Below, one piece after another: positions 44,177-50,673 of a stretch of DNA of 64,000 nucleotides (positions within the stretch are counted from its first letter, which is position 1; each line of letters begins with the position of its first letter). The DNA lies in contig JANWVY010000009.1 of assembly GCA_025056455.1 (NCBI GenBank), positions 62,001 to 126,000 on the forward strand, written 5' to 3'. The notes beneath the pieces were generated by a model, which saw only the letters and a program-made list of their open reading frames with translations, had not been told where the DNA came from and did no database searches. The position numbers were made by a program, and so were the translations under genes. The stretch is from Bryobacteraceae bacterium (lineage in GTDB: Bacteria > Acidobacteriota > Terriglobia > Bryobacterales > Bryobacteraceae).

Positions 44177-45583
44177 ATGTTGCTTTCTTCCTCGGCCTAC
44201 TTTGTTTTCCTCGTCTTCATTTTCCTTCTCTACTGGCCGCTTTCTCGCCAGCGGGCCCTTGCCCTGGGTGTCATCCTCTTTGCGAATTACTTTTTCTACG
44301 CGAAATGGGATGTCTTTTATCTGTTCCTCATTCCGGCCGCCTCGACGTTAGACTTTCTTTTTGGCTACGGCATCGGGCTAGCCAAAGCGCGCTGGCAGCG
44401 CAGAGTTTTCTTGGGACTAAGCCTCGCGCTGAATCTTGGCCTGCTGGCGTCGCTCAAATACATGCCCTTCATCCTCGAAAACTATGCCTACTTCGCCGGC
44501 GTGAAACAACCCGCCTGGCAGTGGAGCTTTCCGCTGGGGATCTCATTCTATTGCTTTCAGGCGCTCACCTACACCATCGACATCTACCGCCGGGACGCTC
44601 AGCCGGCCAAAAGCTACCTGGCCTACCTGGCCGCCGTCAGTTTTTTTCCCACCACGCTTGCCGGACCGATCACCCGCGTAGCAGCGCTCTTGCCGCAGCT
44701 CGAAAAGCGCACCATGATAAGCGCTGAGGATGGCGGAAGGGCGCTCTTCCGCATCGGGCTCGGATTGATGAAAAAACTCCTCGTGGCCGATTATCTCGCC
44801 GCCAATTTGGTCAACCGCGTCTTCGATTTCCCCAATCTCTATTCGGCGACCGAAGTGCTGGTGGGTGTTTATGCCTATGCCTTTCAGTTGTATTTTGACT
44901 TTTCTGGTTACACGGATATCGCGATCGGGTCTGCCTTATTGCTGGGCCTGAAACTTCCAGAGAATTTCAGAATGCCGTATGCAGCGGAAAATATCGCCGA
45001 GTTCTGGAGGCGCTGGCATATTAGCTTATCGAACTGGCTGCGGGATTATCTCTACTTTTCTCTGCCTGGGCTGCGCTCGCCCAAGAAGGTGTTTCTCTAT
45101 TTGAACCTGATCCTCACCATGGTGATCGGGGGCTTGTGGCACGGACCCAACTGGACGTTCGTGATTTGGGGCTTGCTTCATGGTTGCGCCCTCGCTGTGG
45201 TGCGCTACGGACAGCATATACGGGGCCCGGCGAAACCGAACCCGGCTTGGTGGGCTCGCGCCGGGCGAATCTTTGTGACCTTTCATTTTGTTTGCTTTAG
45301 CTGGATCTTTTTCCGCGCCTCGAGCCTTTCCAACGCCTTGGAGGTGCTTAGCAGGCTGTCTTCAGCTACTCTCGCCTTCGCCAATCTCACAGGGCCTATT
45401 GTGATCATCTTGCTGTTGGCGATGCTCGGTCATTACACGCCCGAGAGGTGGTTTCGACGCCTCGACCAGCTCTTTGTGCGTTCGCCCTTTTTCGTCCAAG
45501 CGGCTGCCATGGCACTGCTGCTTTTAGCTATCCACTACGTGGCCACCAAGGACGTGGCGCCTTTTATCTACACCAAGTTCTGA
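44177..45583 (+). CDS. MBOAT O-acyltransferase (AlgI/DltB-like)
   Basis: A 468-residue membrane protein with about ten hydrophobic segments. It carries the MBOAT hallmarks: FPLGISFYCFQALTYTIDIY, FFPTTLAGPITR, FQLYFDFSGYTDIAIGSALL, NIAEFWRRWHISLSNWLRDY and the catalytic histidine 322 in GGLWHGPNW, with a second histidine in WGLLHG. AlgI and DltB relatives move acyl groups across the membrane to an outside hydroxyl, taking them from a carrier. Here the gene is followed without gaps by two SGNH proteins, an acyl carrier protein and a KAS III-like protein, so this MBOAT probably takes its acyl group from that carrier. Confidence 0.94.
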   Translation: MLLSSSAYFVFLVFIFLLYWPLSRQRALALGVILFANYFFYAKWDVFYLFLIPAASTLDFLFGYGIGLAKARWQRRVFLGLSLALNLGLLASLKYMPFILENYAYFAGVKQPAWQWSFPLGISFYCFQALTYTIDIYRRDAQPAKSYLAYLAAVSFFPTTLAGPITRVAALLPQLEKRTMISAEDGGRALFRIGLGLMKKLLVADYLAANLVNRVFDFPNLYSATEVLVGVYAYAFQLYFDFSGYTDIAIGSALLLGLKLPENFRMPYAAENIAEFWRRWHISLSNWLRDYLYFSLPGLRSPKKVFLYLNLILTMVIGGLWHGPNWTFVIWGLLHGCALAVVRYGQHIRGPAKPNPAWWARAGRIFVTFHFVCFSWIFFRASSLSNALEVLSRLSSATLAFANLTGPIVIILLLAMLGHYTPERWFRRLDQLFVRSPFFVQAAAMALLLLAIHYVATKDVAPFIYTKF

Positions 45584-45586
45584 CTC

Positions 45587-46969
45587 ATGCTCTGGCCGGC
45601 CAAATCGCTTTTGACGTTGATCACCTTTTGCGGCCTCTTGCTGCTCACGCACTTAGTGCCTGCGCTGAAAGATTACCGGCTGATGGATTGGCGCACCGTC
45701 CCCTCCCTCCTCGATTTTGTCAGCCGTACCCGCTCCGCAAACCCCGAGAGCGACGAGCAGCTACGCCTGCGTCCCGACACGGATGCGCTGCGGCAATCCA
45801 AGTACCCCATCGAAGACGACCATCACGATCTGGACCGCTTCTATCAATCGCTCCACCGAGTGGAGGGCGGGGAAGGTGTCGTGCGGATTCTTCACTATGG
45901 GGATTCGCCGACCACGGCCGACATGATTACCGGCGATGTGCGTGCCCTCTTGCAAAAACGTTTTGGTGACGCCGGACATGGTTTCTTTTTAATCGCCAAG
46001 CCCTGGGCCTGGTACTCCCACCACGGTTTGGAGATTCACGGCGATGGCTGGTTTATTGATCCCGTCAACCAGAGCTCGGTTAAGGACGGCTTGTTCGGAT
46101 TGGGTGGCGTGAGCTTTCGCGGCGCAGCTGGTTCGACGGCGACGATTGTATTAAAAGGCGGCGGACACCACGTTTTAGAGGTGGCCTATTTGCGGCAACC
46201 GGGCGGCGGTCAGTTTCGCGTCGAAGCCGGTGGTGTGCCGTTGGGATGGGTAAATACGAATTCCTCCGAGCTCGGCTCGGGGTTTAAGGAATTTCAGGTC
46301 GACCCAGCCCATCGCGAGTTCACCATCCGCACCCTGGGTGGCCCGGTGCGAATTTTTGGCGCCCGGTTAGAAAGGAAAGTCCCAGGCGTCGTGTATAACA
46401 GCCTTGGCGTGAACGGCGCCTATGTCTCTGTGCTCGCCCGGCTGATGTCAGAAACACACTGGACAGAGCAGCTACGACACTACCGCCCCGATCTGGTCAT
46501 CATCAATTACGGAACCAACGAGAGCGCCTATCCCCAATTCGTCGATACAGCTTCAGCGAAAGAACTTAGGGAAGTGGTGCGGCGGCTGCGCGTGGCCGTA
46601 CCCGGGGCTTCGATTTTGTTGATGAGCCCGATGGACCGCGGTCAGCGAATGGCTGGCGGGGAAATCGGCACGGTGCCCACAATCCCCCGTCTCGTTGCGA
46701 TTCAGCAACGGGTGGCACATGAAACGGGCAGCGCCTTCTTCAACACCTTCGCCGCCATGGGAGGCGTCGGGACGATGGGTCGCTGGTATGAAGCCGAACC
46801 GCGGTTAGTCGGCGCGGATTTCATGCACCCCATGCCTGCCGGCGCCAAGATCGTGGGCGGCCTTCTCTATCAAGCTCTCATGGATGGCTATGTTAAGTAC
46901 AAACTGCGCTTGATCCAGTCTCAGCGTCTGGCCCTGAACTCCTCCCGGCCTGGCCCAGGTGGTCAATAA
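45587..46969 (+). CDS. SGNH-hydrolase-like protein 1 (DltD/AlgX-like role)
   Basis: A 460-residue protein with an N-terminal membrane segment (SLLTLITFCGLLLLTHLV), so the catalytic part is probably periplasmic. SGNH marks are HYGDSPTTADM (Ser 107), INYGTNES (Asn 311) and DFMHP (Asp 411, His 414). Between the first and third blocks sits a beta-rich insert of roughly 150 residues (FRGAAGSTATIVLKGGGHHV, YLRQPGGGQFRVEAGG) resembling a carbohydrate-binding module. It starts 3 bases after the MBOAT stop. In alginate and D-alanine systems a protein of this type takes the acyl group from the MBOAT side to the polymer. Confidence 0.85.
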   Translation: MLWPAKSLLTLITFCGLLLLTHLVPALKDYRLMDWRTVPSLLDFVSRTRSANPESDEQLRLRPDTDALRQSKYPIEDDHHDLDRFYQSLHRVEGGEGVVRILHYGDSPTTADMITGDVRALLQKRFGDAGHGFFLIAKPWAWYSHHGLEIHGDGWFIDPVNQSSVKDGLFGLGGVSFRGAAGSTATIVLKGGGHHVLEVAYLRQPGGGQFRVEAGGVPLGWVNTNSSELGSGFKEFQVDPAHREFTIRTLGGPVRIFGARLERKVPGVVYNSLGVNGAYVSVLARLMSETHWTEQLRHYRPDLVIINYGTNESAYPQFVDTASAKELREVVRRLRVAVPGASILLMSPMDRGQRMAGGEIGTVPTIPRLVAIQQRVAHETGSAFFNTFAAMGGVGTMGRWYEAEPRLVGADFMHPMPAGAKIVGGLLYQALMDGYVKYKLRLIQSQRLALNSSRPGPGGQ

Positions 46970-48394
46970 ATGCGAGCCGTGACCCGTTTCAACCCTCTGC
47001 TGGTCTGGGTTCTCGTCCCCAGTTTGTTCCTCGATCCGGTCTTGCCAGCTGGTAAAAGCGCCACAGCGAAAAGAACTGCGACCGAAACCAGGAAAGCGAG
47101 AAAAACACCGGCCAAGATCCTTCCCCCCAAACCGGCTACTTCTTCCGCGCGAAGCCTCTCCCGCAACAGGGCGGCGTCTGCCCCCGCTTTCAGCCCGCGG
47201 CCGGTCTTGAGCGTTGAAGAAGCGCTTGAAATTGCGCGGCAGACTCCCCTGGAGAACGTTGCTGCCCTTGTCCCGTTCTTCGAACAGCTCTACCGGCACC
47301 AAAACGGCAGCGGAGACCATCGGCTCCACATTCTTCACTACGGCGACTCACACACCGCAGCCGACGAGTGGACCGGATTTCTCAGAGCTCTCTTTCAAAA
47401 CCGCTTTGGCGATGGCGGGGCTGGGTGGACGCACGCGGGCAAGCCTTGGAGCTCATTTCGACGCCTTGACGTCAGCAGTGACGCCACTCCGGGCTGGCGG
47501 GCTGAGGGTCTTTTGGGCCGCCCCAGCGACGGGTGGAACGGGCTGGCCGGGGTTAGCATTACCACGCAAAAACCTGGCGAATCGGTCCTTCTTGAAGCTT
47601 CATGTGACTGGCTGGAAGTTTTTTATCTCCGCCAGCCAGGAGGAGGGTCCCTGAACTTTTACGATAACGGGGTGCTGGTAGACCGCATCGACACCCAGGG
47701 AGAACGCGGCGCGGGGTTTTATCGTTACGCGCCGGTCCCGGGTCCTCATCATTTCCGGCTGGAAACGGTGGATGCCGCACCCGTGCGCCTGTTTGGCTGG
47801 GCCGCCGAACAAGGGCATGGCGTCACCTACGAAATGCTCGGCATCAACGGGGCGCAGGCCTCGATTGTGTTTCAGTGGGAAGAGCCCTTGCTGGCCGAGC
47901 ACATCGCCCGGCGGAATCCGGCTCTCCTTGTTTTCGCCTACGGAACCAATGAGGCCAGCAACTTCGATTGGAATCGCGAAAACTATCGCCATATGTTCGC
48001 CTCCCTCATCCAGCGCTTCCGCCGCATGGCGCCCACAGCCTCGATCTTGGTCATTGGGCCGCCGGATCGCAGCGTGCGATGGCGGGGCGGTTGGCGAACC
48101 TTCGACGCCGTTGATCGCATCGTCGAGGCGCAGCGCGAGGCTGCACTCGGCACGGGTTGTGCTTTTTGGGATTTACGGGCGAAAATGGGCGGGAAGGGCT
48201 CCATGCCTCGCTGGGTTTCGGCTGGTTTGGCGCAACGTGACTACGTGCATTTTACGGCCGCCGGCTACCGCCTGATCGGCGGAGCAATTTTCGAGGACCT
48301 CATGAATCACTACGCAACCTTCGTGAAGGTGCGCTCGCAGTGGATGGGACAGGACTTCGACAAACGCAATGGACAAAAGAGCGACAATCCTTGA
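46970..48394 (+). CDS. SGNH-hydrolase-like protein 2, paralogue of the preceding gene
   Basis: A 474-residue protein that begins directly after the stop of the first SGNH gene (TAAATG). A signal or anchor segment (LLVWVLVPSLFLDPVLPAG) is followed by a Lys/Ala/Thr-rich linker (about residues 28-75). Active-site blocks are HYGDSHTAADEW (Ser 127), AYGTNEAS (Asn 327) and DYVHF (Asp 424, His 427). The same beta insert occurs (FYLRQPGGGSLNFYDNG). Shared stretches with protein 1 (HYGDS, RFGDAG/RFGDGG, YLRQPGGG, SxLGVNGA/EMLGINGA) show an ancient tandem duplication. Its last 26 bases overlap the carrier-protein gene. Confidence 0.85.
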   Translation: MRAVTRFNPLLVWVLVPSLFLDPVLPAGKSATAKRTATETRKARKTPAKILPPKPATSSARSLSRNRAASAPAFSPRPVLSVEEALEIARQTPLENVAALVPFFEQLYRHQNGSGDHRLHILHYGDSHTAADEWTGFLRALFQNRFGDGGAGWTHAGKPWSSFRRLDVSSDATPGWRAEGLLGRPSDGWNGLAGVSITTQKPGESVLLEASCDWLEVFYLRQPGGGSLNFYDNGVLVDRIDTQGERGAGFYRYAPVPGPHHFRLETVDAAPVRLFGWAAEQGHGVTYEMLGINGAQASIVFQWEEPLLAEHIARRNPALLVFAYGTNEASNFDWNRENYRHMFASLIQRFRRMAPTASILVIGPPDRSVRWRGGWRTFDAVDRIVEAQREAALGTGCAFWDLRAKMGGKGSMPRWVSAGLAQRDYVHFTAAGYRLIGGAIFEDLMNHYATFVKVRSQWMGQDFDKRNGQKSDNP

Positions 48395-48602
48395 AATCCT
48401 TCGAAAGGTGTCGAACAAGGATTTGAATCCAGCCCCGGAGGAATCTTTATTCGACTCTGGCTTACTGGACTCCTTTGCTCTGCCTGAGATGGTCAGCGCA
48501 CTCGAGCAGGCTTTCGGCATCACCATTCCGGACTCTGACTTAAACCCCCGGAAATTTGACTCCATTGAGCGCATCGAGCAATATCTCGAGAGCCGGAACT
48601 AA
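48369..48602 (+). CDS. acyl carrier protein (DltC/ACP-like)
   Basis: A 77-residue four-helix carrier protein. The phosphopantetheine site is FDSGLLDSFALPEM with Ser 35 in the LDS context. Acidic helix II and the C-terminal DSIERIEQYLE are as in ACPs. The D-S-F rather than D-S-L sequence differs from the fatty-acid ACP and recalls carriers dedicated to side pathways. Its start overlaps the second SGNH gene and its stop is 4 bases before the KAS III-like gene, so it is translated as part of this cassette. Confidence 0.9.
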   Translation: MDKRATILEILRKVSNKDLNPAPEESLFDSGLLDSFALPEMVSALEQAFGITIPDSDLNPRKFDSIERIEQYLESRN

Positions 48603-48606
48603 GACC

Positions 48607-49539
48607 GTGGCTTGGATTTGCGGATTTGGGGCGGCCTTGCCCTCGCGCCTGGTAAGCAACGCCGAGATCAGTGCGCTCATTGGCAAAACCCCAGAGTGGA
48701 TTCAAAGCGTTTCCGGAATCCAGCACCGCCGCTGGGTGGCGTCTGGCGAAACGCTCCTCGAGCTTGCCGTGCGAGCGGCTGAGGATTGTTTATCGAAAAC
48801 CGCCGTTTCCGCCTCCGAGATTGGTCTCATTCTCGTCGCCAGCGCAAGCGCTCCGCGCCGTTTCCCCGGTCCAGCCGCCGTTGTGGCAGCTCAGCTCGGC
48901 CTTCAGGAGATTCCGGCTATCGACCTGCCTATCGCAAGTGCGGGAGCTTTGTTTGGCATGGCACTGGCAAACGAACTGGCGCCGCGCTTCGGTCCGACTC
49001 TCGTGGTAGCGTCCGAGGTTCTTTCCCCGTTCGTCGTCGCCGAGCCTATCGAGGCCGGCGTTGCCATGCTGTTTGGAGACGGCGCTGGCGCTTGTCTGAT
49101 TCATCCTACAAGCGGCCTCTTCAAGATTTGCCAGGTGCAACTGGCCTCCGACGGGTCCTTCGCCGAGGATTTACGCCTGGAATTTCAAGGTCCCATCCAG
49201 ATGAATGGGCGCGCCGTCATTCTGCAAGCCTCCCGGAAAATCCCCCGAGCCATTCAACAAGTTCTTGATCGCCAGGCCATTCCAGCAAGCCAAGTGGACC
49301 GCTTTCTCCTTCACCAGGCCAATCAGAACTTGCTAGACCGAGTGGCTGATGTCCTGACGCTACCGCGAGAAAAGTTTTTCTCGAATATCGCGCACTACGG
49401 CAACACCTCCTCCGCTTCGGTGCTCATCGCGGCAGCGGAGTCCTTCCAACAACAGCCGCCTCCATCTGGCGCCTACGTCTGCTTTGCTGCCTTTGGCGCC
49501 GGTTTTCACTGGGGCGCAATGCTCTGCCAGGCGGGTTGA
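48607..49539 (+). CDS. KAS III (FabH)-like protein with Cys-to-Ser at the active site
   Basis: A 310-residue thiolase-fold protein, starting at GTG 48607 so that it begins AWICGFGAALPSRLVSN as in FabH. His 236 (FLLHQANQN) and Asn 266 (HYGNTSSAS) of the Cys-His-Asn triad are present. The nucleophile position is serine 111 in IASAGALFGM, where FabH has ACSG. FabH-like proteins with Ser at this site are known in polyketide starter selection (for example DpsC), where they bind acyl-CoA and transfer the acyl group rather than condense in the usual way. In this operon it could load the adjacent carrier protein. The Cys-lacking reading is clear; the role is inferred. Confidence 0.87.
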   Translation: MAWICGFGAALPSRLVSNAEISALIGKTPEWIQSVSGIQHRRWVASGETLLELAVRAAEDCLSKTAVSASEIGLILVASASAPRRFPGPAAVVAAQLGLQEIPAIDLPIASAGALFGMALANELAPRFGPTLVVASEVLSPFVVAEPIEAGVAMLFGDGAGACLIHPTSGLFKICQVQLASDGSFAEDLRLEFQGPIQMNGRAVILQASRKIPRAIQQVLDRQAIPASQVDRFLLHQANQNLLDRVADVLTLPREKFFSNIAHYGNTSSASVLIAAAESFQQQPPPSGAYVCFAAFGAGFHWGAMLCQAG

Positions 49540-49724: not shown

Positions 49725-49815
49725 TCCCGTAGTTGGACCGGCAATCTTGGTGTGTAGTTGGGTCCGGAAGCGAGAAAAAAGTAATAGAACTCAGAGAGTT
49801 CGGAGGACACTATCG

Positions 49816-50673
49816 ATGTTTCTGATCCCAGGAGGTCGTGGCGGGAAGAGATCTCTCCTCGCTGCTCTTGGTGGTTTGCTCTTTGCCTCCAGCGCGCCAG
49901 CGGCGGTGGTGGGCCAGTTTGTGGGCAATAATCCATCCAACATCTGGGCCAGCTCCGGTAACTTTAGTTCCATCTACGCAGCTGCCTTGGCCACCGGGGG
50001 ACACACCATCGAATCTCCCGAGAACATCACCTCCTCCAATCTCGCCAACAATACGCACTTCATCATCTCGAACCCCCTCACGGGGGTGCCCGACCTGAAC
50101 GCGTTGATCAATTGGGTGAAGGCCGGGGGCATTCTGATGATGTTTGTTGATCACGAATCGCCTTCCTCGATCGGCATTATCAACAACATTTTGAATGCAT
50201 TCGGCGCCGGCCTGTCGGGAAGCCCTCTCCAGGTCAGTACGTCGCAGTTGCTGGATCCGAGCATGACCTATCGCCTGACGGCAAGCGCCCTGGCGGGCTC
50301 CGATCCCGCCGTGGGCAGTTTGGCAGGGGCGGCGGTTTCGATGTTTAATCCTTTTGGGGTCAGCGGCGGGAATGCCTTAGCCATTAATTTGCTGGGCAAC
50401 GCGCTCAGAGTCGACCACTTTCAGCTTGGGAAAGTTTACGTGTTCGGCGACAATTTCGCCTCCAACGCCAATCTGAGCAACTGGTTCATGGGCTCTGGAA
50501 TGACCAACCAGCAATTCTTCTTGAATCTGCTCGCCCAAAGTCTAAGTGGAGGCGGAGGTGGAGGCAGTGGTGCCGGAGGCTTTGATGCGCCGGAACCAGC
50601 AAGCTTGGGTTTAGTCGCGCTCGGGCTTGGATGGGTCGCCTGGAGCATCCGCCGGCGCCGAGACCGCGCCTAA
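49816..50673 (+). CDS. PEP-CTERM sorted exoprotein
   Basis: A 285-residue secreted protein. The signal peptide (KRSLLAALGGLLFASSAPAA) leads into a region that resembles a glutamine-amidotransferase-like alpha/beta fold (TGGHTIESPENITSSNLANN, LINWVKAGGILMMFVDHES, LGKVYVFGDNF) but without an obvious catalytic triad. A Gly-rich linker is followed by the PEP-CTERM tripartite tail: APEPASLG, a hydrophobic helix (LGLVALGLGWVAWSI) and RRRRDRA. Such tails are cut by an exosortase, whose gene is not in this window. The start is the ATG at 49816; the longer open frame lacks a signal peptide at its end. Confidence 0.88.
   Translation: MFLIPGGRGGKRSLLAALGGLLFASSAPAAVVGQFVGNNPSNIWASSGNFSSIYAAALATGGHTIESPENITSSNLANNTHFIISNPLTGVPDLNALINWVKAGGILMMFVDHESPSSIGIINNILNAFGAGLSGSPLQVSTSQLLDPSMTYRLTASALAGSDPAVGSLAGAAVSMFNPFGVSGGNALAINLLGNALRVDHFQLGKVYVFGDNFASNANLSNWFMGSGMTNQQFFLNLLAQSLSGGGGGGSGAGGFDAPEPASLGLVALGLGWVAWSIRRRRDRA

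Follow-up and report, generated by a model that had tools for sequence, protein, structure and literature searches.

Envelope acylation pathways that pair an MBOAT-family membrane O-acyltransferase with SGNH-family proteins have been described with two kinds of acyl supply: in the account of PMC12148441, Dlt is the only such pathway presented as carrier-fed, and the non-Dlt pathways, described there without a carrier, are taken to work through acyl-CoA. In the same account, a hexapeptide of the form FxYxxF serves as the acyl shuttle, being acylated on its Tyr; PatA-type systems have it as a fused part of their MBOAT, and Dlt has it on DltX. Here, we describe a five-gene cassette at positions 44177-49539 of a 64,000-nucleotide stretch of DNA (the window) from a Bryobacteraceae bacterium (GenBank assembly GCA_025056455.1, contig JANWVY010000009.1, positions 62,001 to 126,000 of the forward strand), which encodes an MBOAT, two SGNH proteins (SGNH1 and SGNH2), an acyl carrier protein (ACP) and a protein related to beta-ketoacyl-ACP synthase III (KAS III) that we named KAS3. 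The cassette joins a fused shuttle motif with a carrier, is a conserved unit in Acidobacteriota, and is probably a carrier-fed MBOAT-SGNH envelope acylation variant built on the patA-patB-ape1 plan.

A conserved five-gene cassette in Acidobacteriota

The features of the cassette are as follows.

44177..45583, + strand: MBOAT-family membrane O-acyltransferase of 468 aa with a fused PatA-type shuttle motif (Pfam PF03062, 2.8e-26; DltB model 178.8 bits, cut-off 375)
45563..45580, + strand: C-terminal acyl-shuttle hexapeptide FIYTKF (motif FxYxxF), present in 34/34 MBOATs; role as given in PMC12148441
45587..46969, + strand: SGNH1, Ape1-fold, candidate terminal acyltransferase (Lipase_GDSL_2, 5.4e-17; nucleophile followed by Pro)
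within 45587..46969, + strand: N-terminal hydrophobic helix of SGNH1, a putative anchor, judged by eye
46970..48394, + strand: SGNH2, Ape1-like, candidate esterase or second transferase (Lipase_GDSL_2, 1.6e-14; nucleophile followed by His)
within 46970..48394, + strand: SGNH2 is probably exported, judged by eye
48369..48602, + strand: dedicated acyl carrier protein of 77 aa (PP-binding, 8.9e-10), overlapping SGNH2 by 26 bases
48471..48473, + strand: Ser35 codon of the carrier, predicted phosphopantetheine attachment site (from the sequence; invariant in the alignment)
48607..49539, + strand: KAS III-like protein (KAS3), 310 aa from GTG 48607, with a Ser-His-Asn active site (ACP_syn_III_C, 4.4e-25)
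48937..48939, + strand: KAS3 Ser111 codon (FabH Cys112), Ser in 33/33 Ser-type members
49312..49314, + strand: KAS3 His236 codon (FabH His244), His in 126/126 compared sequences
49402..49404, + strand: KAS3 Asn266 codon (FabH Asn274), Asn in 126/126 compared sequences

The gaps between the five genes are 3, 0, -26 and 4 bases when KAS3 is read from GTG 48607; its open frame also permits a start at TTG 48556. The first-pass annotation had described five tightly packed genes acting as one system. All five lie at the coordinates given above, with each family assignment supported by Pfam, and the idea of one system is borne out by gene order and co-occurrence conserved in other genomes and by parts that are kept after the cluster has been split.

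Gene order was tabulated for 42 loci, the order at L049 being read separately because a long open frame blurred it. The arrangement MBOAT-SGNH1-SGNH2-carrier-KAS3 on one strand was found at 22 of the 42 loci, SGNH2-MBOAT-SGNH1-carrier-KAS3 at three (L143, L155 and L156), and an MBOAT group facing a carrier-KAS3 pair at another three (L048, L141 and L142). KAS3 was absent at L145 and L157, the Ape1-type SGNH gene was absent at L140 and L158, and five loci were cut by contig ends (L033, L034, L053, L055 and L137); where the carrier locus was uncut, KAS3 was the usual neighbour of the carrier. Splitting of the cluster, which has occurred in two different ways, has not led to loss of the parts: in genomes G035 and G348 the trio and the pair lie at separate places (L146 and L047; L159 and L132), and in Bryobacter sp. 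CoA8 C33 (L054) SGNH2-carrier-KAS3 and MBOAT-SGNH1 are found on two different contigs. That the genes recur together in such different layouts is more than a single inherited operon would readily account for.

Co-occurrence was assessed in two samples, with KAS3 proteins called Ser-type or Cys-type after the residue at the nucleophile position. Among 61 genomes of relatives, the window genome included (raw counts that ignore shared ancestry), a Ser-type KAS3 (at least 229 bits with the window protein as query) was found in 20, SGNH1 (at least 271 bits) in 20, both in 19, and an MBOAT of at least 415 bits in 21. The exceptions were G009, which has its KAS3 on a 3.7-kb contig and in which SGNH1 was not found, G030, which has the four genes other than KAS3, and G022, whose MBOAT is truncated where its contig stops. 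The second sample comprised 396 genomes from across the phylum, and the KAS3 and SGNH1 profile searches were taken as covering the same draw (equal size and shared handles). In it, 13 genomes reached at least 366 bits with the KAS3 profile, all with Ser, and the next genome only 275 bits; with the SGNH1 profile, 16 genomes scored at least 376 bits and another four scored lower. Both genes occur in 12 genomes, that is, 12 of the 13 with a Ser-type KAS3 also carry SGNH1. The four genomes with SGNH1 and no Ser-type KAS3 (G123, G135, G350 and G398) all have a Cys-type KAS3, which lies near the carrier in three of them and on another contig in G350. The four weaker genomes (L160-L163) have SGNH pairs, accompanied in two of them by an MBOAT.

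A scan of genome contigs by patterns common to FabH, which is not a census, gave at least 80 loci, and four of the 80 listed were of the cassette type. Through 50 of the other 76 loci, 50 genomes were reached, three of which had SGNH1-like matches; two of these three are Myxococcota (L175 and L176), where the stretches fetched contained no match to the MBOAT, the carrier or KAS3. There, genes for SGNH1-like and SGNH2-like (Ape1-type) proteins face each other beside an FHA protein gene (L175:9054-12410 and L176:2184-5533), and a gene for an NAD_binding_4 reductase is also present beside them in L175. The third is a Bacteroidales, in which a contig (L180:3-3927) carries SGNH-SGNH-MBOAT, the MBOAT ending in FIYFQF, with no carrier or KAS3 match, and perhaps represents a carrier-free arrangement of such systems.

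The MBOAT and the SGNH pair

Within the 42 loci, 34 of the 34 MBOATs that scored at least 200 bits and had an in-frame stop end in FxYxxF; the N-terminally cut MBOAT of L137 ends in FIYFSY. Both SGNH proteins are relatives of the peptidoglycan O-acetylesterase Ape1. The AlphaFold2 model of SGNH1 (pLDDT 83.3) had Ape1 (4k3u) as its best match, with a TM-score of 0.87 by target length and an E-value of 2.1e-26, followed by 8gld and 8gkd, and the first match after these three reached only 6.3e-10. Sequence profiles matched 4k3u with E-values of 7.2e-29 for SGNH1 and 5.4e-50 for SGNH2, in alignments that pair the catalytic Ser, Asn and Asp-x-x-His. At block II, alignments A2 (15 rows) and A4 (14 rows) show an invariant Gly, which belongs to the NGA segment that pairs with Ape1. 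According to an older review, Gly236 and Asn268 of Ape form the oxyanion hole, His81 has a supporting role, and the Gly is invariant in PatB as well (PMC6174289); PMC12148441 instead reports its replacement by Ser or Asn in PatB.

The nucleophile is followed by Pro in 34 of 35 SGNH1 proteins and by His in 37 of the 38 SGNH2 proteins with a readable block I (39 examined). Because SGNH2 keeps the His at the place where SGNH1 has Pro, our guess is that SGNH2 is the esterase-like member of the pair and SGNH1 the transferase; it counts against this guess that neither protein has the altered block II described for PatB. Homology to Ape1, the one pointer to the target, tips the balance slightly towards peptidoglycan.

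The carrier and the KAS III-like protein

Two features expected of an acyl carrier protein were found: Ser35, in the motif DSF, is invariant in 22 of 22 aligned carriers, and the window genome (an assembly of 4.98 Mb) has one match to the phosphopantetheinyl transferase (PPTase) family. The best NCBIfam model for the window carrier is DltC, at scores below cut-off (48.1 versus 68 bits and 26.6 versus 52.35 bits). At E 0.001 each of the 22 carriers is hit by the two DltC models and equally by three further carrier models, so the carrier is at most a distant relative of DltC.

The AlphaFold2 model of KAS3 (pLDDT 92.3) has the FabH fold, with FabH proteins as best matches (TM 0.94). By sequence, the nearest solved entries among the best 60 of 120 were FabH, then BioZ and PqsD, and no entry named DpsC was among these 60. 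KAS3 scored 208.3 bits with the fabH model (cut-off 292.1) and 239.5 bits with PRK09352 (cut-off 249), and the window genome carries a separate FabH-like gene (G000:C22). We placed KAS3 in a tree of 126 sequences (33 Ser-type, 6 Cys-type and 87 FabH or similar; quick method, midpoint root), from which L001 (the window itself), the partial L113, the 1.5-kb-flank copies L003-L023, frames of fewer than 250 residues (the truncated L049 KAS3 among them) and the non-best frames of each locus were left out, as they were from the residue comparison. Ser-type and Cys-type sequences together form one group apart from FabH (SH-aLRT 99), and each type forms a group of its own (99 each); the six Cys-type sequences include that of G030, which has no carrier beside it, and that of G441, from a sugar locus.

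Residues were compared in E. coli FabH numbering, mapped by alignment. Position 112 is Ser in 33 of 33 Ser-type sequences and Cys in 6 of 6 Cys-type and 87 of 87 FabH and other sequences, so that the FabH triad Cys-His-Asn is altered in the Ser-type and complete in the Cys-type sister clade. The residue five after Asn266 is Ser in 33 of 33 Ser-type sequences. Arg249, which in FabH has a role in ACP docking, is Arg in 87/87 FabH and other sequences, Asn in 32/33 Ser-type sequences (Val in the remaining one) and Asn in 6/6 Cys-type sequences. Arg36 is absent from 39/39 sequences of the two types (one has Lys) and present in 86/87 of the others. Trp32 is kept in 30/33, 3/6 and 87/87 Ser-type, Cys-type and FabH or other sequences, and Arg151 (18/33, 1/6 and 35/87) does not separate the groups. 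According to PMC4606726, Arg36 of FabH makes contact with the pantetheine part of CoA, whose adenine is flanked by Trp32 and Arg151. The missing Arg36 speaks mildly against FabH-like CoA binding by KAS3. Both types probably share a change in how the donor or the acceptor is handled.

The first-pass annotation had pointed out that Ser111 replaces Cys with His236 and Asn266 kept, and these three residues indeed do not vary among the 18 sequences in alignment A1. It had further argued from the Ser to an acyl-transferring enzyme; the Ser is real, and this argument is weakened by the differing triad of DpsC, by the retained His-Asn and by the Cys-type sister clade in similar cassettes. The same cassettes led us to reject Ser as the defining trait of the system: a Ser nucleophile is not essential, since the sister clade keeps Cys, and the retention of a nucleophile in both types makes a covalent acyl-enzyme likely. 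DpsC, with a Ser-His-Asp triad, self-acylates and transfers the acyl group to its ACP as described in PMC12664062; PMC9573744 gives its triad as Ser-His-His and describes, on the KAS III fold with Cys-His-Asp triads, acyl transfer to a carrier by ChlB3 and to a sugar by CerJ. With DpsC and ChlB3 as precedents, acyl transfer to the carrier would be the most economical role for KAS3, one to which we give a little less than an even chance, and acyl-CoA may be the donor in such a transfer.

Surroundings of the cassette

Upstream of the cassette lie genes for a RidA-type protein, an NYN/OST-HTH protein and a B12-binding protein, and downstream those for a PEP-CTERM protein, MetK and S-adenosylhomocysteine hydrolase, all of which look unrelated by family. 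Conserved neighbours were sought by clustering the open frames of 39 loci. The largest non-cassette cluster was that of the PEP-CTERM protein, with members at nine loci (the window and eight loci of the same genus) and 36-86% identity to the longest member; its gene in the window (49747-50670) lies directly downstream of the cassette, and in this genus the protein may assist the cassette or be its substrate. A promoter scan gave 0 sites versus 1.9 in shuffled sequences, and 10 terminator-like sites were found versus 7.4.

Two loci show the carrier or KAS3 in other company. After the carrier of G030 (L145:7130-9560) come a small frame that by eye resembles a ribbon-helix-helix antitoxin and a DDE transposase (PF13701); the genome has its Cys-type KAS3 elsewhere. 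In G441 (L158:1931-9910), a polysaccharide locus, a Cys-type carrier-KAS3 pair is followed by a DegT aminotransferase gene and is divergent from an MBOAT gene, an AlgX-like SGNH gene and glycosyltransferase genes.

Proposed mechanism and alternative explanations

We consider it likely that the cassette O-acylates the envelope from a carrier and that KAS3 supplies this carrier, by whatever chemistry. In the proposed scheme, a PPTase would arm the carrier at Ser35, and KAS3 would take an acyl group on Ser111 and supply it to the carrier. The MBOAT would then hand the carrier-bound acyl group on to the Tyr in its C-terminal FIYTKF, on the outer side, and SGNH1 would take it over and esterify an envelope glycan, most likely peptidoglycan. 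SGNH2, in which the Ape1 active-site residues looked at are kept, would remove or edit the ester. This scheme preserves the core idea of the first-pass annotation and abandons its Dlt template and its reliance on the Ser.

Several observations weigh against the scheme. The FxYxxF motif is general and is the ending, too, of MBOATs at loci that lack a neighbouring carrier (L162, L163 and L180); for the weaker SGNH relatives (L160-L163), no carrier or KAS3 match was present in the stretches fetched, one of which was cut. Given these carrier-less relatives and the other systems thought to be fed by acyl-CoA, the MBOAT might not need the carrier. By the criterion of the block II Gly, which is reported as replaced in PatB and is kept in both SGNH proteins, neither of them looks like PatB. 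G030 retains MBOAT-SGNH1-SGNH2-carrier with transposon DNA in place of an adjacent KAS3, in G350 KAS3 and its carrier sit on different contigs, and G160 has the carrier-KAS3 pair with SGNH1 not found. The genomes surveyed are, moreover, largely draft or metagenome assemblies.

The His-Asn pair of condensing enzymes also counts on this side, and it favours an explanation that shares the carrier-fed scheme and differs only in the KAS3 step, namely that KAS3 is a true condensing enzyme which joins a primer with malonyl-carrier, so that the carrier comes to hold a short beta-keto acyl group (or, once reduced, a hydroxy one) for export by the cassette. Both residues are invariant in 33/33 Ser-type and 6/6 Cys-type sequences, the Cys-type has the whole FabH triad, and the nearest of the best 60 solved structures are FabH proteins; for priming enzymes with the FabH triad, PMC12664062 reports condensation, with direct transfer to ACP not observed, which bears on the Cys-type clade. 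Set against this, the main clade has Ser for Cys, Arg249 and Arg36 are absent, and the tabulated five-gene unit includes no reductase, its neighbours being only partly annotated. On balance, condensation is on the unlikely side. Loading of the carrier from elsewhere in the genome, by an AMP-ligase or another acyltransferase, would leave KAS3 to edit, decarboxylate or hydrolyse the carrier-bound acyl group. The DltA model has eight matches in the whole genome, and the G030 carrier is retained with no neighbouring KAS3; all eight matches are below cut-off, however (the best at 128.7 versus 559.85 bits), and KAS3 is the usual neighbour of the carrier in uncut loci (ligases beside the carrier were not systematically searched), so that we regard this explanation as improbable.

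Less likely again is that the carrier and KAS3 belong to a different pathway (N-acylation of a lipid or sugar, for example) and just happen to stand in one operon with an ordinary MBOAT-SGNH system fed by acetyl-CoA. The G441 pair beside a DegT aminotransferase gene indicates that carrier-KAS3 can serve other sugar chemistry, and the known non-Dlt MBOAT-SGNH systems, as presented in PMC12148441, have no carrier. Against it, the genes co-occur, are adjacent in different layouts and are retained together in genomes where the cluster was split in either of two ways. We give hardly any chance to the view that the cassette belongs to the Dlt (D-alanylation) family with a replaced ligase. It does have the set of carrier, MBOAT and SGNH protein, with DltC as the best NCBIfam model of the carrier, but carrier, MBOAT and ligase all fall below the Dlt cut-offs, on which ground we rejected Dlt membership. 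The DltB model, moreover, hardly separates cassette from other MBOATs, since six cassette MBOATs scored 179-206 bits and five outside the standard cassette 140-189 bits, and no DltD family was among the Pfam or NCBIfam matches of the cassette proteins up to E 0.1. The first-pass annotation was right that the cassette holds no DltA, and none is above cut-off in the genome either, whereas its term "Dlt-like" fits poorly for a locus that reaches no Dlt cut-off and has its shuttle on the MBOAT and an SGNH pair related to Ape1.

Implications

A broader reading, which we think unlikely as a whole, is that a KAS III clade has turned from fatty-acid making into a non-adenylating carrier loader, and that in many Acidobacteriota a carrier thioester, not CoA, is the source for peptidoglycan O-acylation, with an acyl group that may be other than acetyl. 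A second carrier-fed kind of MBOAT-SGNH pathway, with a supplier derived from KAS III and the shuttle on the MBOAT, would show that the type of donor and the architecture of the MBOAT are separable. It would also offer a small system for the question of how an MBOAT chooses between CoA and a carrier, and a handle on envelope modification in Acidobacteriota.

Comparison with known systems

Among the papers listed in a literature search, none was seen from its title and abstract opening to describe an MBOAT-SGNH system that includes both a carrier and a KAS III-like partner; this is weak evidence because preprints and most subscription papers lay outside the scope of the search. With FabH, KAS3 shares the fold and the active-site His and Asn; it differs in the nucleophile, in Arg36 and Arg249, and in forming a separate clade. 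ChlB3 and CerJ are alike in fold and in acyl transfer and differ by their Cys-His-Asp triads and their place in antibiotic pathways. The DpsC-like priming ketosynthases come close, with a KAS III fold, a Ser nucleophile and a carrier partner; however, KAS3 has a Ser-His-Asn triad and DpsC acts in a polyketide context. Membership in the DpsC group was rejected, as Asn266 is kept and the residue five further on is Ser in all 33 Ser-type sequences.

At the level of the whole cassette, Dlt is similar in placing a carrier beside an MBOAT and an SGNH protein. The differences are that the cassette has no DltA above cut-off, that its shuttle is fused to the MBOAT, that its SGNH proteins are nearest to Ape1, and that it has a KAS III-like partner. 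The missed Dlt cut-offs, the built-in shuttle motif and the Ape1-like SGNH pair make patA-patB-ape1 the better template. As in that system, one MBOAT ending in FxYxxF stands with two SGNH proteins, one of which has the Ape1 residues looked at and is an Ape1 homologue. Unlike in that system, the two SGNH proteins both resemble Ape1 and have the Gly at block II, so that the altered block II of PatB is missing and no PatB is recognisable, and the cassette extends the patA-patB-ape1 plan with a dedicated carrier and with a partner of the KAS III type.

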